Below the pieces are notes generated by a model that searched no databases, was not told the origin of the DNA, and saw only the letters and a list, made by a program, of their open reading frames with translations. A DNA stretch of 60,863 nt from Bacteroidota bacterium (GTDB lineage: Bacteria > Bacteroidota > Bacteroidia > Bacteroidales > Prolixibacteraceae). Every line of letters begins with the position of its first letter. The stretch's first letter is position 1. Of this stretch, positions 32,011-41,628 are shown in pieces. Location: NCBI GenBank assembly GCA_024278975.1, contig JAJRSD010000008.1:1-60863 (forward strand), read 5' to 3'. Position numbers and translations under genes: made by a program.

Positions 32011-32397
32011 TTAAGACAGTATTTTAATTTAATTTGCTAAAAGTAGCAATCTCTTTTAAATTGTTGTTATTGTTGAAATAAAAAAAATGAATTTGGAAAG
32101 GAGGGAATCGGACTTTCTTAAGTCTGATAAAAATGTCTGACTTGGGAAAGTCAAAGTCCCGGGAGTTGGAGTTTCTAACTCCGATAATCTCCGACTTGGG
32201 AAAGTCAGAGTCCCGGGAGTTGGAGTTTCCAAGTCCAACAATCTCCGACTTGGGAAAGTCAGAGTCCCCGGGAGTATCAATTTTTATCAAGCGAAGCCAT
32301 CCATAAAACAATTTCTATAACTTGGCGACAACAATACTTATAACAATTTGCTGCTTTTTATTTATTATCTTAGCGGTTGAAACTAAATTATAATACT
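32011..32397. other. Divergent intergenic region with palindrome array A
   Basis: 387 bp between the AGCS symporter and the acidic small protein. The array at 32109-32275 fills the middle. The frames that read through it are open only because 54 bp is a multiple of three. I see no gene in it. Confidence 0.65.
32109..32275. repeat. REP-like palindrome array A (54-bp period)
   Basis: Copies of GACTTGGGAAAGTC at 32139, 32193 and 32247 lie exactly 54 bp apart, each followed by a GTCCCGGGAG spacer. Between them are GGAGTTTCTAACTCC (32168-32182) and the hybrid GGAGTTTCCAAGTCC (32222-32236). A degenerate copy starts at 32109. The consensus stem is GGASTT with AASTCC around a 3-4 nt loop. Same family as arrays around the RAYT gene 5.4 kb away. 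Confidence 0.85.
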
Positions 32398-34168: not shown

Positions 34169-37100
34169 TTGAACAGGTTAGCCATTACATATTTTATTTT
34201 GCTGTTTTCGTTTTTATTTACTCTTACTGAAGTAGATAATGAATTATCTTTTGAGGTCAACACTTCAATTAGCCAAACCAATGATTTTAATATTACCATC
34301 GATGGTCAAATTGTTAACAAATTGGGCGAACCCAGTGTATCAATTGAGAACTTGCTGGTACAATACATTAGAAATGGTAGAATAAGAGGTGAGGTTTTCA
34401 CAGGCTTAAACGGATATTTTACAATCAATGGAGTAATTACAGGAATTGATGAACTGAATATCTCTAAAAATAAGATTGTAAATACAGGTGGTACTGTTTT
34501 CAGAAACACAACATCAATTGAAATCTACACAAATGCTCCGGGAGAAGTTATTGCATCAGATATTCACGGAAAAATCCTTGCAAACAAAAAACTTCAAAGT
34601 CCCGGAATATATAGATTTAAATATGATGGTAATAATACTAATGGTATTCATCTAATATCTGTTCAAACAAAATCGTGGCACGAATCTATTAAAATTATTG
34701 CCATTGGTAATGCAGGAACAACTGGGTTTGAATTAGAATCTTTCAAACCCTTAATAATTGGTTATAATTTAAAAAGTGCAGAACAGGATACATTAAAAAT
34801 TAGTGGTGAAAATATTAGTACTAAGTATATTGGTTTCTGGCATGAATGACGTAATGTTAACGTGGGGCAGAAATTTGTAAATCAGGGTTCTGAAATATCT
34901 GATATTCCAATATTAAACACCGGAGTTGGAGAGGAAGTATCTATAAATCTTGCTGATTACATTTACAATGATGACCAATGTATTTATACATCTCAAGACA
35001 CAAATTTTATTGTTGACGAATCTGTTATTAGGTTCATGTCATCAGCAGTTGGACAGTTTGCCGCCACAATAGATATTAATGATGGCGAAGATGAAAATCT
35101 CACAAAAGAAATAGAAATTCAAGTAAATGTTGTAGAACAAGAAGATGCCGTTCCACCAGAATTTAATTCAATTACTTTAAATGGTACAGAAGATGAAAGT
35201 TTAGTATTTAATGTAAATGGAGATTTTAATGAATTAGACGGTGAAAATCTAAGTTATAACATACCTGGTTTACCTGTTGGATGGAGTCAAACTTGGAATG
35301 GAGAACAAGTAACAATAATAGCACCACAAGATTACGAAGGCACTATTTCAAATTTAAGAGTAGAAGCAAGTGACCCACAAAATAATAAAATTGCAGGTAA
35401 TTATTTCAATATAACTAAAACAGTAGTACAACGATGCACCAGTTCAAAGTTCTACAATCGGAAATCAAAGTATAAATGAAAATACTTATTTTGAGTTCAA
35501 CTGGGAAAACAAAGTATCAGATGTAGATAATACTGATAATGAATTAACACCAAGTATTGAAACATTAACAAATGCGACTTATACAGTAAGCGGTGCAAAT
35601 TTAAGAATAACACCTAATACAGATTTTGTTGGAACTATAAATGATATTATTGTTAAAATTTCGGATCCTGACAATGCATATGTGAATATTGAAGCATTTG
35701 ATTTAATTGTTAATAATGTAAATCAAAATCCAATTGCTAATGATGATGTTACTAGTACTGCTTACGAAACAGTAAAAAATAATATTAATGTTGCAGCTAA
35801 TGATTCGGATGTGGATGATAATTTAGATGTTACAAGTACGGTTATTACTCAGAATCCAATTAATGGGATTGCAAGCGTTGATGCAAGTGGTTATATTGAT
35901 TACACTCCAAATAATGGTTTTAGTGGGATTGAAACTGTTAAATATACTATTAAAGATTTAGATGGTCTTGTTAGTAACGTAGCAAATTTAACAATTACAG
36001 TTGGTGCAGCTCCAAATCAAAAACCAGTTGCAAATGATGATAATTCAAGTACTAACGAAGATGTTGCTAAAACTTTAGATGTATTAGCAAACGATGTAGA
36101 TACTAATTTAGATGTTACAAGTGTATCAGTTATAGAAGCACCAGCACATGGAAGTACAAGCGTTAATGCAATTAATGGACAAATAACTTACACTCCTGCA
36201 TTAAATAATAATGATAATGTAACATTTAAATACAGCGTTTCCGACACCGAAGGATTAAAAGATACAGCAACAGTAAACATGGTTGTAAACCCAGTAAACG
36301 ACGCAGTACAAAGTACTGGAAGTATTGCAGATAAAGTTGTTGATAAAGGAAACAATGTAGTAATTGATTTAAAACCATTATTTTCAGATGTAGAAACAGC
36401 TGATGAAAATCTTACATATTTATTATCAGGTTTAGACTTAGGAACTTATTCAGTCGCAAATGGAATTGCAACAATTGCAGCAACAATTGCAGGAACAGAT
36501 ATAAATATTAGAGCAAGCGCAAGCGATGGAGAAACAAGTGCTAATAGTAACTATTTTACTATGACTGTAAATGATATTATAGAAACAAGTAATGTAACAT
36601 TCAAATTTAGAGGTGCAAGCACAGATGCAGATTTAACTAGTGGAACCAGTACTTTAAGATATAAGAAATCAGGCGATGCAAGTTACACAACCTTAACAAG
36701 TACAAATGGAAGTTTCACAGTGGAAATGGATAAAAACATCGCTTATGAAATTGACGGAAGCCATAGTGGAGACTTAGAAACTGCATTTGGAGCTCCAAGT
36801 GTATATCTAGCACTTAAAAGAACTGGTGATTTAGAAGCTTTTGAACAAAGAGCAGTAGATGATGAAAGTTCACCAGTAACATTCACAGGAACAAATGAAA
36901 CAGTTTATTTATACAAATTAATGAGTGACTTTCCATTAGGACCAATGCAAGAATACGCTTCGAAAGATGAAAATGGTAATACTGGAACTAGAAAGTTTGC
37001 AACAAGTGATAAAGATGCACCAATCTGGTGGGATAAAAATTACGATAATTATACAACAGAACAAAGAACATGGATAAGTGAAGTATGTAATGACTTAAAA

Positions 37101-37436
37101 TCATTACCTCATGTATATTTAACTCTACCATTCCAAGAAGGAACAGTAATACCTAGTTCATCATATAACGGAATATCAATGGATGCAAGTTTTCCATCAC
37201 CAGGAACCAATAGTACAACTTATAATAGTAATCACGAAATAACCTCAAGTTCAGCAGAATATCCAGATTCACCTGCTAAAAGCACTTTTTTTATTGAGAT
37301 ATTACAAGCAATTGGTGATTTAAATGATGTAGGAGGTAATAATCCTGCTATTTTAGGTAATGATTATAAATTAAATACAACTGGTCAGAAAATATTCTCT
37401 GTTATGTATTTATTTCAGCCTAAGACTAAGTTTTAG
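34169..37436 (+). pseudogene. Exported Ig/cadherin-like adhesin, broken by a stop and a frameshift
   Basis: Three open pieces belong to one gene. The first (TTG start at 34169, signal LAITYFILLFSFLFTLTE) ends at an in-frame TGA at 34847; the same frame continues as VGQKFVNQGSEISDIPILN. Near 35429 one extra base shifts the frame: removing it turns VVQRCTS into VVNDAPV and joins the piece open to 37436. The last piece has cadherin-like repeats (NQNPIANDDVTST, NQKPVANDDNSSTNED) and a tail with STFFIEILQAIGDLND, which aligns with HEIGHALG-type zincin motifs but lacks both His. It ends directly at palindrome array B and may be truncated. More AT-rich than its neighbours. Confidence 0.7.
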
Positions 37437-37593
37437 GGAGTCGGACTTTCCCAAGTGGGAGTTGGACTTTCCCAAGTCCAACATGATCTTTGAGTTGGGA
37501 AACTCAAAGTCCCGGGAGTCGGACTTTCCAAGTCCGACAATCTCCGACTTGGGAAACTCGAAGTCCCGAGAGTTGGACTTTCCCAAGTCCAAC
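37437..37593. repeat. REP-like palindrome array B
   Basis: Five dyads: GGACTTTCCCAAGTCC at 37464-37479 and 37575-37590, GAGTTGGGAAACTC at 37492-37505, CGGACTTTCCAAGTCCG at 37520-37536 and a mismatched GACTTGGGAAACTC at 37546-37559, joined by GTCCCGGGAG-type spacers. The array starts at the stop codon of the decayed adhesin and ends 69 bp before the RAYT gene. Confidence 0.85.
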
Positions 37594-37661
37594 AAAAACC
37601 AAAGAAAAAATACAGGCTAACATTAAATTCCATATCTTTAAACCAAACAAAAAAACCTTCG

Positions 37662-38537
37662 ATGAAACCAAGAAAAGAACATTATCGCGGAAAACTGCCA
37701 CACTTCCAACAACCCGGGCAATGGTATTTTATAACCTGCATTCTCGAAGGAGCAATGCCAAAAGGAGCAATGCAGAAATATTCTATTAATTTAGAAATTG
37801 CAAAAAATAAACTGCACAGTCTGGGAGTTGGACTTTCCCCGGGAGTTGGAGTTTCTAACTCCAACAATCCTCAGGGAGCCGGTGTTTCCAACTCCAACAA
37901 TCCTCAGGGAGTTGGACTTTCCAACTCCAACAATCCTCAAGGAGTTGGAGTTTCCAAGTCCAACAATCCTCAGGGAGCCGGTGTTTCCAACTCCAACAAA
38001 ATCTTTGACTTGGGAAAGTCAAAGTCCCGGGAGTCGGAGTCCCGAAAACTGGCAGAAGCAAAAAAAGATTATCAAATTGCTCTACGGAAATATCGCTTGG
38101 CTTACGATAAAATTCTCAACAATTCAAAAACACCTAAAATTTCATTATTGAAAGAAAACAACAAAGCTATAATAGAAGAGGTATTAAATTTCTGGGAAGG
38201 GAAGCGATTAAAGACTCACGCTTACTGTATTATGAGCAACCATTTTCATTGGGTGGTTTCGGTATTCGAGAAAGGTGAAAATGGCAAGCCGGTATATTTG
38301 CAAGATATTCTTCATTCGATAAAACTGTTCTCATCGCGACGGATAAATGAGAATGAAAACCAAAGCGGACAACTATGGGAACACGAAAGTTTTGATACTA
38401 CAATCAGAAATGAAAAACACTTTATTAGAGTAGTGGATTACACGATTAACAATCCTGTTTCAGCCGGATTGGTAAAAGATTGGAAAGAGTGGCCCGCCAC
38501 TTTTGTTGAGAAGGAATTAGGACACGGACTTTCCTAA
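37662..38537 (+). CDS. REP-associated tyrosine transposase (RAYT) with REP array inside its reading frame
   Basis: 291 residues. The N-terminus HYRGKLPHFQQPGQWYFITC and the HuH motif MSNHFHWVV (His194, His196) mark an IS200/RAYT Y1 transposase; Tyr260 in VVDYTINNPVSAGLV is the likely nucleophile. RAYTs are single-domain endonucleases thought to cut and spread REP palindromes. Residues 54-128, between the first strand and the HuH core, are coded by REP-like palindromes: five 11-residue units of the form PQGVGVSNSNN, then DLGKSKSRESESR. Another palindrome supplies the last codons and stop. Most RAYTs are much shorter (around 150-200 residues by recollection). No stop interrupts the repeat, so the gene looks intact. 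Confidence 0.87.
   Translation: MKPRKEHYRGKLPHFQQPGQWYFITCILEGAMPKGAMQKYSINLEIAKNKLHSLGVGLSPGVGVSNSNNPQGAGVSNSNNPQGVGLSNSNNPQGVGVSKSNNPQGAGVSNSNKIFDLGKSKSRESESRKLAEAKKDYQIALRKYRLAYDKILNNSKTPKISLLKENNKAIIEEVLNFWEGKRLKTHAYCIMSNHFHWVVSVFEKGENGKPVYLQDILHSIKLFSSRRINENENQSGQLWEHESFDTTIRNEKHFIRVVDYTINNPVSAGLVKDWKEWPATFVEKELGHGLS
37823..38043. repeat. REP-like palindrome array C inside the RAYT gene (33-bp period)
   Basis: Units start at 37841, 37874, 37907, 37940 and 37973, exactly 33 bp apart, each containing GGASTTTCCAASTCC-type dyads plus AACAATCCTCA. The outer ends have GTTGGACTTTCC (37827) and GACTTGGGAAAGTC (38008-38021) with the CCCGGGAG spacer of the other arrays. The period keeps the RAYT frame open. 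Confidence 0.88.
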
Positions 38538-38681
38538 GTCCGTGAAAATAGTAAGTCGGAATTTCCTTGGGAGTTGGAGTTTCCAACTCAGACATTTTCT
38601 TTGAGTTGGGAAACTCAAAGTCCCGGGAGTTGGACTTTCCAACTCCGACAAAACCTTCGACTTAGGAAAGTCGAAGTCCCC
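38525..38681. repeat. REP-like palindrome array D
   Basis: CGGACTTTCCTAAGTCCG (38525-38542) contains the RAYT stop TAA (38535-38537). Then GGAGTTTCCAACTC (38576-38589), GAGTTGGGAAACTC (38603-38616) and CGACTTAGGAAAGTCG (38658-38673) follow with GTCCCGGGAG spacers. The array ends 116 bp before higB. Confidence 0.85.
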
Positions 38682-38752
38682 GCTGTTAATCTTATTTCTG
38701 CAAAACCCTCTTTAACAAAAATAGATTTTTTTACTGATGAGCTGTAAAAAAA

Positions 38753-38769
38753 CTTACCAATTTGGTAAG
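38753..38769. promoter_or_regulatory. Likely HigA operator
   Basis: CTTACCAATTTGGTAAG is a perfect 8-bp inverted repeat around one T. Its right arm contains TTTG (38761-38764), which serves as -33 box 20 bp before the -7 box at 38785. HigA-type antitoxins bind such palindromes to repress their own operon. Confidence 0.65.
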
Positions 38770-38784
38770 TCTGTGTTGTTTTTG

Positions 38785-38792
38785 TACTTTTG
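38785..38792 (+). promoter_or_regulatory. -7 box of the higBA promoter
   Basis: TACTTTTG is an exact TAnnTTTG match, 20 bp after TTTG at 38761-38764, and ends only 4 bp before the higB ATG. The transcript should be nearly leaderless. Confidence 0.6.
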
Positions 38793-38796
38793 TCAA

Positions 38797-39096
38797 ATGA
38801 GAATAATTGCATTTCGGACACTACGAGAATTTTGGAAAAATCCAAAATATGGAGATTCTGAGGTGTCGTTACGCTCTTGGTATCACGATGTTAAAAATGC
38901 GGATTGGAAACATTCAAATGAATTAAAATTACAATATAAAAATGCGAGTATTGTTGGCGAAGGAAGAGTTGTTTTTAATATAAAGGGGAATTTGTACAGG
39001 CTGGTTGTATTGATAGATTACGAGTTTCAGGTTGTGTTTATTCGCTTTATTGGGACACATAAACAGTATGATAAAATTGATGTAAAAAGAGTTTAA
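38797..39096 (+). CDS. higB: HigB-type toxin (mRNA interferase)
   Basis: 99 residues from the ATG at 38797 (MRIIAFRTLREFWKNP). Family stretches are SLRSWYHDVKNADWKHSNELKLQYKNASIVGEGRVVFNI and FIGTHKQYDKIDVKRV, the pattern of the HigB toxin family (RelE fold). It should cut mRNA on the ribosome. The toxin gene comes first and the antitoxin starts 2 bp after its stop, the usual higBA order. A longer frame from 38737 would run through the operator and is rejected. Confidence 0.92.
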   Translation: MRIIAFRTLREFWKNPKYGDSEVSLRSWYHDVKNADWKHSNELKLQYKNASIVGEGRVVFNIKGNLYRLVVLIDYEFQVVFIRFIGTHKQYDKIDVKRV

Positions 39097-39098
39097 TT

Positions 39099-39449
39099 AT
39101 GTATATAAAACCAATAAAAACTGAGAGAGATTACACTGAATCAATAAAAAGGATTGAGGAATTGTGGGGGGCAGAGAAAGATACTCCGGAAGGTGATGAG
39201 TTTGATTTACTTATAACTTTGGTTGAGTTTTATGAAATAAAGCATTTCCCGATTGCACCACCAGATCCGATTGATGCCATTAAATTCAGGATGGAACAAA
39301 TGGGGATGACAAAAACTGATCTGGCAAAATATTTGGGGAGTCAAAGTCGTGTTAGTGAAGTGCTTGGCGGAAGACGAAAACTGACACTTAAAATGATAAA
39401 ATCTTTATACAAAGGGCTGAAAATTCCTGCAGAAATATTATTAGCATGA
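39099..39449 (+). CDS. higA: HigA-type antitoxin with XRE helix-turn-helix
   Basis: 116 residues. The N-terminal half (MYIKPIKTERDYTESIKRIEELW, TPEGDEFDLLITLVEFYE) is typical of HigA antitoxins paired with HigB. The helix-turn-helix is FRMEQMGMTKTDLAKYLGSQSRVSEVLGGRRKLTLKMI near residues 66-103. It should neutralise HigB and repress the operon through the palindrome at 38753-38769. Confidence 0.92.
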   Translation: MYIKPIKTERDYTESIKRIEELWGAEKDTPEGDEFDLLITLVEFYEIKHFPIAPPDPIDAIKFRMEQMGMTKTDLAKYLGSQSRVSEVLGGRRKLTLKMIKSLYKGLKIPAEILLA

Positions 39450-39492
39450 ATTCGATAAACCCAAAATGACAAACAGCAATTAAACAAAACTC

Positions 39493-41628
39493 TTATTTCT
39501 GAATAACTCCCTTTAACGAAAGCTGAATTCTTTTACGCGGAATATCAACTTCTTTTACTCGCACTTTTATATGCTGGTGCAGTTTTACAATTTCGTTGGG
39601 GTCGGAAATAAAACGGTCTGCCATCTCGGAAATATGTATTAACCCCGACTCTTTAATTCCCACATCGACAAAAGCCCCGAATTTGGTAATGTTATTTACA
39701 ATCCCCGGAAGTTCCATGCCAACCTGTAAATGTTCGATTGTTGTTATGCCCGGCGCAAATTCAAAAACTTTAATTGGTTTTCGCGGGTCGCGACCGGGTT
39801 TTAAAAGCTCGTTGTTTATATCTGTTAAAGTTGGCAGTCCAATTTCGGCTGTAACATATTTATTGAAATCAATTTTCGAAACCAACTCTTCGTTGCTAAT
39901 TAAATCTGTTATCTGGCAATTTAAATCTTTTGCAATTTGCCGAACTGTTTTATACGATTCGGGGTGAACACCGGAATTGTCCAGCGGATTTTCGGCATCG
40001 GATATTCGTAAAAAACCTGCTGCCTGTTCAAATGCTTTTGTTCCCATTCGCGGTGCTTTTTTCAACTCCTCGCGCGATTTGAAAGCACCGTTCTCTTTCC
40101 TGTAAATTGTTATATTTTCTGCCAATTGCGGTCCCAGTCCCGAAATGTAAGTTAGCAGATGTTTGCTGGCAGTATTCAGGTTTACACCCACCGAATTTAC
40201 GCTCGATTCAACAACAGTATCCAAACTGGTTTTAAGTTTTTTCTGATCAACATCGTGTTGATATTGTCCGACTCCGATACTTTTTGGGTCAATTTTAACG
40301 AGTTCGGCAAGCGGATCCATTAATCGTCGCCCGATTGAAACTGCACCACGAACTGTAACATCGTATTGAGGAAATTCCTGACGGGCAACACTCGATGCCG
40401 AATAAACCGAAGCACCATCTTCGCTAACAATATAAACACGTACTTCGCGATTATAATGAAGCTTTTTGATAAAGAATTCGGTCTCTCTGCCGGCAGTTCC
40501 GTTGCCAATTGCAATGGCTTCAATTTTATACATTTCAACCATCGACGATATTTTTTTTGCTGCCATTTTTCGCTCTTCCTGTGGTTTGTGTGGATAAATA
40601 TTTTCGTTATGAAGCAGGTTTCCCTGTTTGTCTAAACACACAACTTTACAACCGCTGCGATAGCCCGGATCGATTGCCAGCGTTCGCTTTTGGCCAAGTG
40701 GCGGCGCAAGCAGAAGTTGGCGCAGGTTTTCAGCAAAAACTCTAATCGATTCATCGTCGGCTTTCTCTTTCGAAAGGTTGGCAAACTCAGTTTCTATTGA
40801 AGGTTGAATTAATCGTTTCAAACTATCTTTTACAGCAAGCAAAACCTGTTCTGAACTTTTGTTGTTACCACGTACAAAAAAACGGTTTAGGTTTGCTAAA
40901 GTTCGCTCACTGTCGGTAGTAATCGAAACCCGTAAAAACCCTTCGTTTTCGCCCCGGCGCATTGCAAGCAGGCGGTGCGACGGGCATTTTTTAAGTGATT
41001 CGTTCCAATCGAAATAATCGTTATATTTTATGGCAGATTCCTCTTTCCCTTTAATTATTTTCGAAGAAATTATTGCCCCCATTTCAAAGCCGCGACGTAC
41101 AATATTTCTGGCTTTTGGATTCTCGCTAATCCATTCGGCAATAATATCGCGAGCTCCGGCAAGTGCTTCGTTTATGCTTTTTACATCATCATTTAAAAAC
41201 GAATTAGCACGAAATTTCGGATCGCGTTCCACCTGTTTCATAATAATTTTTGCAAGTCCCTCCAGCCCTTTTTCGCGTGCAATTGTTGCTTTTGTACGGC
41301 GTTTTGGTTTGTAAGGCAGATAGATATCTTCCAGTTCAACTGCATCGAAACAGTTTTCAATTTGCAGCTTTAATTCAGAAGTTAACTTTTCCTGTTCGTC
41401 GATGGTTTTTAAAACTGTCTCTTTGCGTTTTTCGAGTTCGGTAAATTTTTCGTTTAGCTCTTTAATTTGCTGAATTTGAACTTCGTCTAAACTCCCCGTT
41501 TGCTCTTTTCGGTAGCGCGAAATAAATGGAACAGTTGCACCTTCGTTAAATAGTTTTATTGTGTTTACAACTTGAGTTTCCCTGATGTTCAGGTTTTGCG
41601 ATATGATGGAGAGAATGGTTCTGTTCAT
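39493..41628 (-). CDS. tex: Tex family S1 RNA-binding transcription accessory protein
   Basis: 711 residues from the ATG at 41628 (MNRTILSIISQNLNIRETQV); the TTG at 41649 is less likely. Tex-N region with PFISRYRKEQTGSLDEVQIQQI, the RNase H/YqgF-like domain (RTLAIDPGYRSGCKVVCLD), helix-hairpin-helix (NTASKHLLTYISGLGPQLAENI) and a C-terminal S1 domain (PGIVNNITKFGAFVDVGIKESGLIHISEM). A nucleic acid-binding protein widely conserved in bacteria. Monocistronic in this window. Confidence 0.94.
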   Translation of the reverse strand: MNRTILSIISQNLNIRETQVVNTIKLFNEGATVPFISRYRKEQTGSLDEVQIQQIKELNEKFTELEKRKETVLKTIDEQEKLTSELKLQIENCFDAVELEDIYLPYKPKRRTKATIAREKGLEGLAKIIMKQVERDPKFRANSFLNDDVKSINEALAGARDIIAEWISENPKARNIVRRGFEMGAIISSKIIKGKEESAIKYNDYFDWNESLKKCPSHRLLAMRRGENEGFLRVSITTDSERTLANLNRFFVRGNNKSSEQVLLAVKDSLKRLIQPSIETEFANLSKEKADDESIRVFAENLRQLLLAPPLGQKRTLAIDPGYRSGCKVVCLDKQGNLLHNENIYPHKPQEERKMAAKKISSMVEMYKIEAIAIGNGTAGRETEFFIKKLHYNREVRVYIVSEDGASVYSASSVARQEFPQYDVTVRGAVSIGRRLMDPLAELVKIDPKSIGVGQYQHDVDQKKLKTSLDTVVESSVNSVGVNLNTASKHLLTYISGLGPQLAENITIYRKENGAFKSREELKKAPRMGTKAFEQAAGFLRISDAENPLDNSGVHPESYKTVRQIAKDLNCQITDLISNEELVSKIDFNKYVTAEIGLPTLTDINNELLKPGRDPRKPIKVFEFAPGITTIEHLQVGMELPGIVNNITKFGAFVDVGIKESGLIHISEMADRFISDPNEIVKLHQHIKVRVKEVDIPRKRIQLSLKGVIQK

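Follow-up and report, generated by a model that had tools for sequence, protein, structure and literature searches.

In-frame insertion of REPs into the genes of REP-associated transposases was described by Quentin et al. (2018; PMC6006769), whose passages on TnpA-REP subclass 2.4 state that tnpA-REP genes of this subclass contain inserted REPs which leave the reading frame unbroken. According to the same passages, the insertions generally lie between the HuH motif and the tyrosine (beta-3/alpha-C), in a variable region that was modelled as peripheral, and the subclass, which corresponds to RAYT group 4 of Bertels, is abundant in Bacteroidetes and Cyanobacteria. Its motifs are given in Table 1 of that paper as NH[IFV]H, WQ and YIxNNP, and its REPs are described there as either of the canonical long type with three G-C foot pairs or of the double-foot type with GT[AG]G at both ends.

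Two further reports concern palindromic repeats in genes and the amplification of REP arrays. We take the first to be the work of Di Nocera and colleagues and the second that of Nunvar and colleagues. The first (PMC3733652) deals, in the sections on this point, with GTAG/CGTC REPs within genes and with Rickettsia palindromic elements; in Thauera and R. conorii, such repeats form clusters with a coding length of 43 to 82 residues. In the pertinent section of the second (PMC2817692), a RAYT-driven rolling-circle scheme was proposed for REP-array amplification. Two REP systems of Marinomonas are likewise reported, in PMC8266576, to have their REPs concentrated close to their gene.

Here, we analysed a RAYT gene that carries REPs within its own reading frame. 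The gene lies in a window of 60,863 nucleotides, this being the whole stretch of DNA under study.

The RAYT gene and its product

The open reading frame at positions 37662..38537 of the forward strand is open throughout and encodes 291 amino acids. It barely exceeded the cut-off of the NCBIfam model NF047646 REP_Tyr_transpos (80.1 bits against 80) and fell slightly below that of Pfam Y1_Tnp (22.7 bits against 23). An alignment of 51 sequences showed no variation at N193, H194, H196, Y260, N264 and P265, which indicates that the HuH motif (H194-F-H196; 38241..38249, forward strand) and the downstream tyrosine of catalytic type with its NP pair (Y260 in YTINNP, codon 38439..38441, forward strand) are both present. 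The initial annotation, made from the sequence alone, had likewise taken the HuH site and the C-terminal tyrosine to be intact. The motifs of the product are NHFH, WE and YTINNP, the first of which agrees with NH[IFV]H of subclass 2.4. Upon searching with the predicted structure, the top Foldseek match was E. coli TnpA-REP (4ER8; E 3.8e-6), with 18% identity and a TM-score of 0.36 (by query length). The same entry was the sole PDB sequence match of the RAYT profile at the E 0.001 threshold (E 7.5e-7), and the significant sequence alignment spans the HuH-to-Y part only. On the basis of family models, invariant residues and Foldseek, we assign the product to the REP-associated tyrosine transposases (RAYTs) of HuH/Y1 type; binding and cleavage of REPs are predicted for it.

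HuH/Y1 domains were also seen in frame within long ORFs, namely two in the same genome (L005, C105:56640-56828, and L006, C21:10417-10629) and one at G054:C282 (L113). The host ORFs comprise 1195, 1290 and 1454 aa and, judged by their motifs, presumably encode restriction-modification methylases. In L113, the RAYT lies inside the long frame with EASSFGI-type coding repeats on either side.

REPs around the gene

When 21 REPs from the window were aligned, 18 of them distinct, the consensus consisted of a GGGA head, a 9-nt arm, TCC(C) and a complementary arm. The arms paired in 93.8% of cells compared with a mean of 80.3% upon shuffling, and they co-varied with a score of 0.375 compared with 0.145 for shuffled alignments; neither value was equalled in any of 500 shuffles. 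REPs in both orientations stand on either side of the RAYT gene, in an upstream array at 37436..37593 and in a downstream array with a period of 56 bp at 38569..38680. A further array is situated about 5 kb upstream of the gene (32103..32268). One REP (38519..38544, forward strand) crosses the 3' end of the ORF, with the TAA stop falling partly in its loop and partly in its second arm, so that the final codons of the RAYT are also REP-derived. REP-like 3' gene ends were recognized by eye in five of 12 loci inspected (L114, L116, L117, L120 and L124).

On the upstream side, the first REP is preceded by an ORF for a cadherin/Ig-domain protein (35682-37436), and the G of the TAG stop of this ORF is also part of the GGGA head of that REP (37434-37439). 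This ORF is the last of three consecutive ORFs on the same strand (34169-37436), which may be pieces of one protein and possibly represent a broken gene; it has bacterial Ig/cadherin-like domains, and the first two ORFs are without a Pfam match. Beyond the downstream REP array, positions 38794-39449 hold two genes, one for a toxin of the HigB type (PF09907, 109.1 bits) and one resembling HTH_3 antitoxin genes.

REPs within the reading frame

Residues 54-128 are encoded by palindromes of the kind that also flank the gene (37823..38045, forward strand), as the initial annotation had read them. A truncated unit beginning at 37823 is followed by five head-to-tail units of 33 bp (37841..37999, forward strand) and by an inverted REP (38003..38028, reverse strand) with a perfect 9-bp stem, the coding strand of which reads FDLGKSKS. 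The 33-bp period is exact (unit starts at 37841, 37874, 37907, 37940 and 37973), each unit corresponds to 11 codons giving PQGVGVSNSNN-type repeats, and the frame stays open. TRF reported the array at 37841-37999 with 4.8 copies and a score of 234; the exact copy number could have been influenced by the assembly. When the loop was aligned to the flanks of its own gene, the score was 81, whereas 20 loop shuffles gave at most 26 and a control coding segment reached 22. Judged by this alignment, the internal repeats are cognate REPs that match far above chance, which is in line with the earlier reading of them as the transposase's own targets.

The last part of the loop (two REPs with the linker between them, and the head of a further REP) aligned to the upstream array over 67 columns with the inter-REP linker included and hence resembles a copied flanking REP pair. 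In a search of positions 36000-40000, the full 33-bp unit was confined to the ORF, which suggests later tandem amplification. The likeness of internal and flanking repeats could also be explained if the stretch were an assembly chimera of the flanking arrays, and in one draft genome (G008) a single gene is indeed split over two contigs (L016 and L027), both ending in the tandem array of the loop, here with a 12-residue unit. We consider such a chimera extremely improbable and rejected it, because the 33-bp unit is missing from the nearby flanks and because the complete genome of Draconibacterium orientale FH5T (L122, NZ_CP007451.1) has in-frame REPs at the same site, with an own-flank score of 102 and rank 1; the uninterrupted frame of the window gene speaks against it as well.

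The perfect 9-bp stem and the GGGA head are kept by two internal copies (37841 and 38003). Unit 37907 pairs perfectly in a different register only, and the remaining internal copies are mismatched. The array folds strongly, the z value being -5.56 for the RNA and -7.17 for the minus-strand ssDNA. The retained stems and the strong folding would suit a self-limiting loop, an idea raised in the initial annotation. On this view, REPs in the gene, single-stranded in replication, or in its mRNA would be bound or cut by the RAYT, the activity of which would thus destroy or repress its own source.

A REP covariance model was also run against the whole genome and gave 41 matches at E <=1, 22 at the RAYT locus and 19 at 13 other places, counts that may be low since the model was built from locus copies (21 of the 22 locus matches were in it) and 150 of 3215 first-look candidates were scored. 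Among the copies found, none of the other 19 lay in the interior of an ORF of at least 100 aa, with ORFs counted from the first ATG and no gene finder applied, and the RAYT gene is the only gene with interior REPs. General tolerance of REPs inside the genes of this genome was thus considered and not seen among the copies found. On C26, a 350-aa ORF ends in a REP, of which all but one of 25 bases fall within the final codons, and a further REP covers the last 7 bases of an ORF, so that REPs at gene ends are not peculiar to the RAYT; two more share bases with short ORFs (79 and 62 aa). Low-copy inverted REP pairs resembling REPINs were noted at C26:3261-3315, C86:23673-23725, C68:66078-66136, C23:122828-122882 and C23:5353-5409; the pair on C26 is the one that provides the end of the 350-aa ORF.

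The insertion site in the predicted structure

For the window protein, AlphaFold predicted a helix at residues 38-53, a segment without structure at 54-117 (pLDDT < 50 at 63-102) and a second helix at 118-153. The predicted structure of a REP-free relative from Mariniphaga sediminis (L163) has helices at 32-55 and 59-86 with a turn of 3 residues between them. Taken together, the two models indicate that the array opens the turn of a helical hairpin. As modelled, the array site is located upstream of HuH, in the helical-hairpin turn after beta-1, with a tip that is predicted to be disordered. Structure prediction had been proposed as a check on whether the repeat forms a loop, and the disordered hairpin tip answers to this description.

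REP-coded loops among relatives

The window protein was matched in 16 of the 37 genomes of its genus, own genome and weak matches counted, and the RAYT profile in 40 of the 140 genomes of the family. A pattern scan with one genome per species (84,980 species) found 105 relatives, with 80 loci listed; the closer relatives listed are nearly all Bacteroidota, many of them labelled Prolixibacteraceae. Exclusion of 17 loci without an anchor from a total of 81 left a set of 64, which overlaps heavily with a set of 42 loci that was also used, and the two sets are not independent. The palindromes vary by species, with a GGGA head in the window clade and GGGT-type heads in many others.

At the array site, the commonest state among the 64 complete loci is a turn of exactly 26 residues (78 nt; 32/64), and the other loci have 18 to 102 residues, with 92 in the window. 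A comparison proposed in the initial annotation, namely whether the closest relatives lack residues 54-128, thus had a divided outcome: the plain turn in 32 loci agrees with such an absence, and the remaining loci include REP-coded loops. In the window clade, internal REPs are read in three of the six possible phases, giving mostly small or hydrophilic residues, and the inverted-REP peptide FD[FL]GKSKS was found in four genes, in one case at a different site. These observations could mean that the disordered REP-coded loop is of use to the enzyme, be it as a flexible linker or in contacts within a REP complex. The biased phase use fits filtering for tolerated peptides, however, and simple tolerance predicts such a bias as well; the wide range of loop lengths and the prevalence of the 26-residue turn also argue against a required peptide, and a function of this kind appears very unlikely to us.

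To assess whether the internal copies are cognate, each loop was aligned to its own flanks (up to 600 bp per side) and to the flanks of all other loci. Loci with an own-flank score of at least 32, a threshold chosen after the scores were seen, were called REP-positive. Own flanks ranked first in 16 of the 20 REP-positive loci of the 42-locus set and in 15 of the 19 of the 64-locus set, with own-flank scores of 32-231, and in L128 the loop and its downstream flank aligned over 158 columns. The four REP-positive loops of the 64-locus set that were not best matched by their own flanks (L115, L117, L134 and L148) imply that some internal REPs are older than, or unlike, the present flanks. The exact 26-residue turns (32/64) reached own-flank scores of 15-30, at or near shuffle level, yet in one of them (L154) own flanks came first with a score of 30. 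In L081, L089 and L098, the loops exceed 26 residues and a REP was not detected.

The control coding segment from the loop end to HuH scored 16-27 in all 64 loci, and the segment following HuH scored 12-24 in 63. The exception was L117 (1534-2313; same gene as L112), in which in-frame REPs are present both at the N-terminal hairpin turn and in the published beta-3/alpha-C loop. A second insertion has brought its beta-3/alpha-C segment to 186 nt instead of 57, with a score of 51, and this is the one locus among the 64 with an insertion there. The cognate scores together with the flat controls indicate that REPs enter coding sequence at the hairpin turn and, in L117, also in the beta-3/alpha-C loop.

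History and selection

On a tree built from the core after removal of the loop (45 rows), at least nine changes between REP-bearing and REP-free states were counted, four of them forced by well-supported branches, with labels given partly by eye, L081, L089 and L098 treated as free, and weak support on many branches (14 of the 42 inner branches starred). Under strict labels, which omit these three loci and cover 27 of the 45 rows, at least five changes were required and two were forced. This suggests that the REP state changed repeatedly. A single ancient insertion is disfavoured by the tree, though many branches are weak and strict labels force only two changes.

Among the 19 REP-positive loci, a single open frame is present in 15 and the loop length is a multiple of three in 18. 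Core dN/dS amounted to 0.127 and 0.115 in the two closest intact REP-positive pairs, values that show purifying selection on the enzyme core in these two pairs of relatives. The window gene has no dN/dS value of its own since dS against its four nearest kin was infinite or saturated, or 1.65-2.95, at a dN of 0.20-0.31. In the window clade, the codons of unchanged residues agreed more often within the inverted REP (5/7 to 8/8) than in the core (0.43-0.53), and between the window gene and L115 one pair of changes, identified by eye, preserves the hairpin pairing. Codon likeness and paired change could reflect upkeep of DNA structure rather than passive decay, and repeat insertion would look alike. 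Selection for the palindromes was dropped as an explanation, since the codon excess depends on just 7-8 codons.

Broken genes were somewhat more frequent among REP-positive loci (4/19) than among the others (2/45; p = 0.059), so the insertions may carry a cost. Such an excess, like the stems and folding described above, would also fit a self-limiting loop. Against it stand relatives with the plain turn. In ten loci with the 78-nt turn, at least one flank hairpin was present in eight and at least three in six, as counted by our own script with a requirement for 7 or more perfect pairs, by which mismatched stems are missed; the background of such hairpins is about 0.3 per kb of the window outside REP arrays (17 in about 60 kb). 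A locus of the window's own genus (L019) combines the plain turn with 7 flank hairpins, and L160 and L163 (the genes of L099 and L102) have the plain 26-residue turn, flanking hairpins and open frames. The existence of these relatives indicates that internal REP copies are dispensable and renders a self-limiting loop unnecessary; furthermore, flanking REPs would give the enzyme equal substrate with the coding frame untouched. We therefore regard the self-limiting loop, which these data leave unsupported, as unlikely. It also seems improbable that the internal REPs are a cis-acting brake on their own gene or transcript that a Bacteroidota clade re-acquires at one site and that limits REP spread.

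Proposed origin of the internal copies

We consider it probable that REPs spread locally, entered a tolerant loop and stayed in frame, and that the internal copies are by-products of this spread, which selection on the enzyme has filtered and which the enzyme does not require. Cognate REPs are concentrated in the neighbourhood of the RAYT gene; a flanking-type REP pair would at some time in the past have entered the N-terminal hairpin at its turn, and a single unit of REP plus linker would then have been amplified in tandem at 33 bp. An insertion would survive only with the frame kept and only where its peptide does no harm; the disordered loop at the hairpin tip would be such a place, as would the beta-3/alpha-C loop of one relative. 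The need for an intact enzyme would keep the REPs in frame. The RAYT itself presumably made the insertions, the 33-bp units probably arose by tandem duplication, and the REP-coded loop is likely to be without function.

Comparison with known systems

The initial annotation knew of no described RAYT built in this way. This does not hold, as the passages of PMC6006769 on subclass 2.4 report in-frame REPs inside tnpA-REP genes, and like the members described there the window gene is a REP-flanked HuH/Y1 RAYT with in-frame REPs inside the gene. Unlike the usual site between HuH and Y given in those passages, the window array lies upstream of HuH, in the hairpin turn after beta-1. No account of an N-terminal insertion site was found in the literature searched, the supplement of PMC6006769 (Figure S10) being outside the search. 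The window gene also departs from the motif table of that paper in having WE instead of WQ and YTINNP instead of YIxNNP. The head of its REPs, GGGA (GGGT in many relatives), differs from the GT[AG]G stated in PMC6006769 for the double-foot type, so that the window REPs are not of this type.

The systems treated in the relevant sections of PMC3733652 resemble the window RAYT in that palindromic repeats reside within coding genes, whereas the hosts named there are other genes, for example for DNA repair or replication, and the host in the window is the RAYT itself. The rolling-circle scheme put forward in PMC2817692 could yield tandem units like those of 33 bp.

In-frame REPs inside RAYT genes were thus already described in 2018, and it is in its N-terminal position that the present array differs most clearly from the published account. 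What is added here is the insertion site, the cross-species cognate test and evidence that the REP state changed more than once. A brief statement in earlier work is thereby extended into a natural series of related transposases with and without in-frame target sites at one hairpin turn, a series that allows RAYT-driven spread of REPs in cis, the tolerance of different loops for REPs and any effect of an in-gene target on the activity or survival of the enzyme to be tested.
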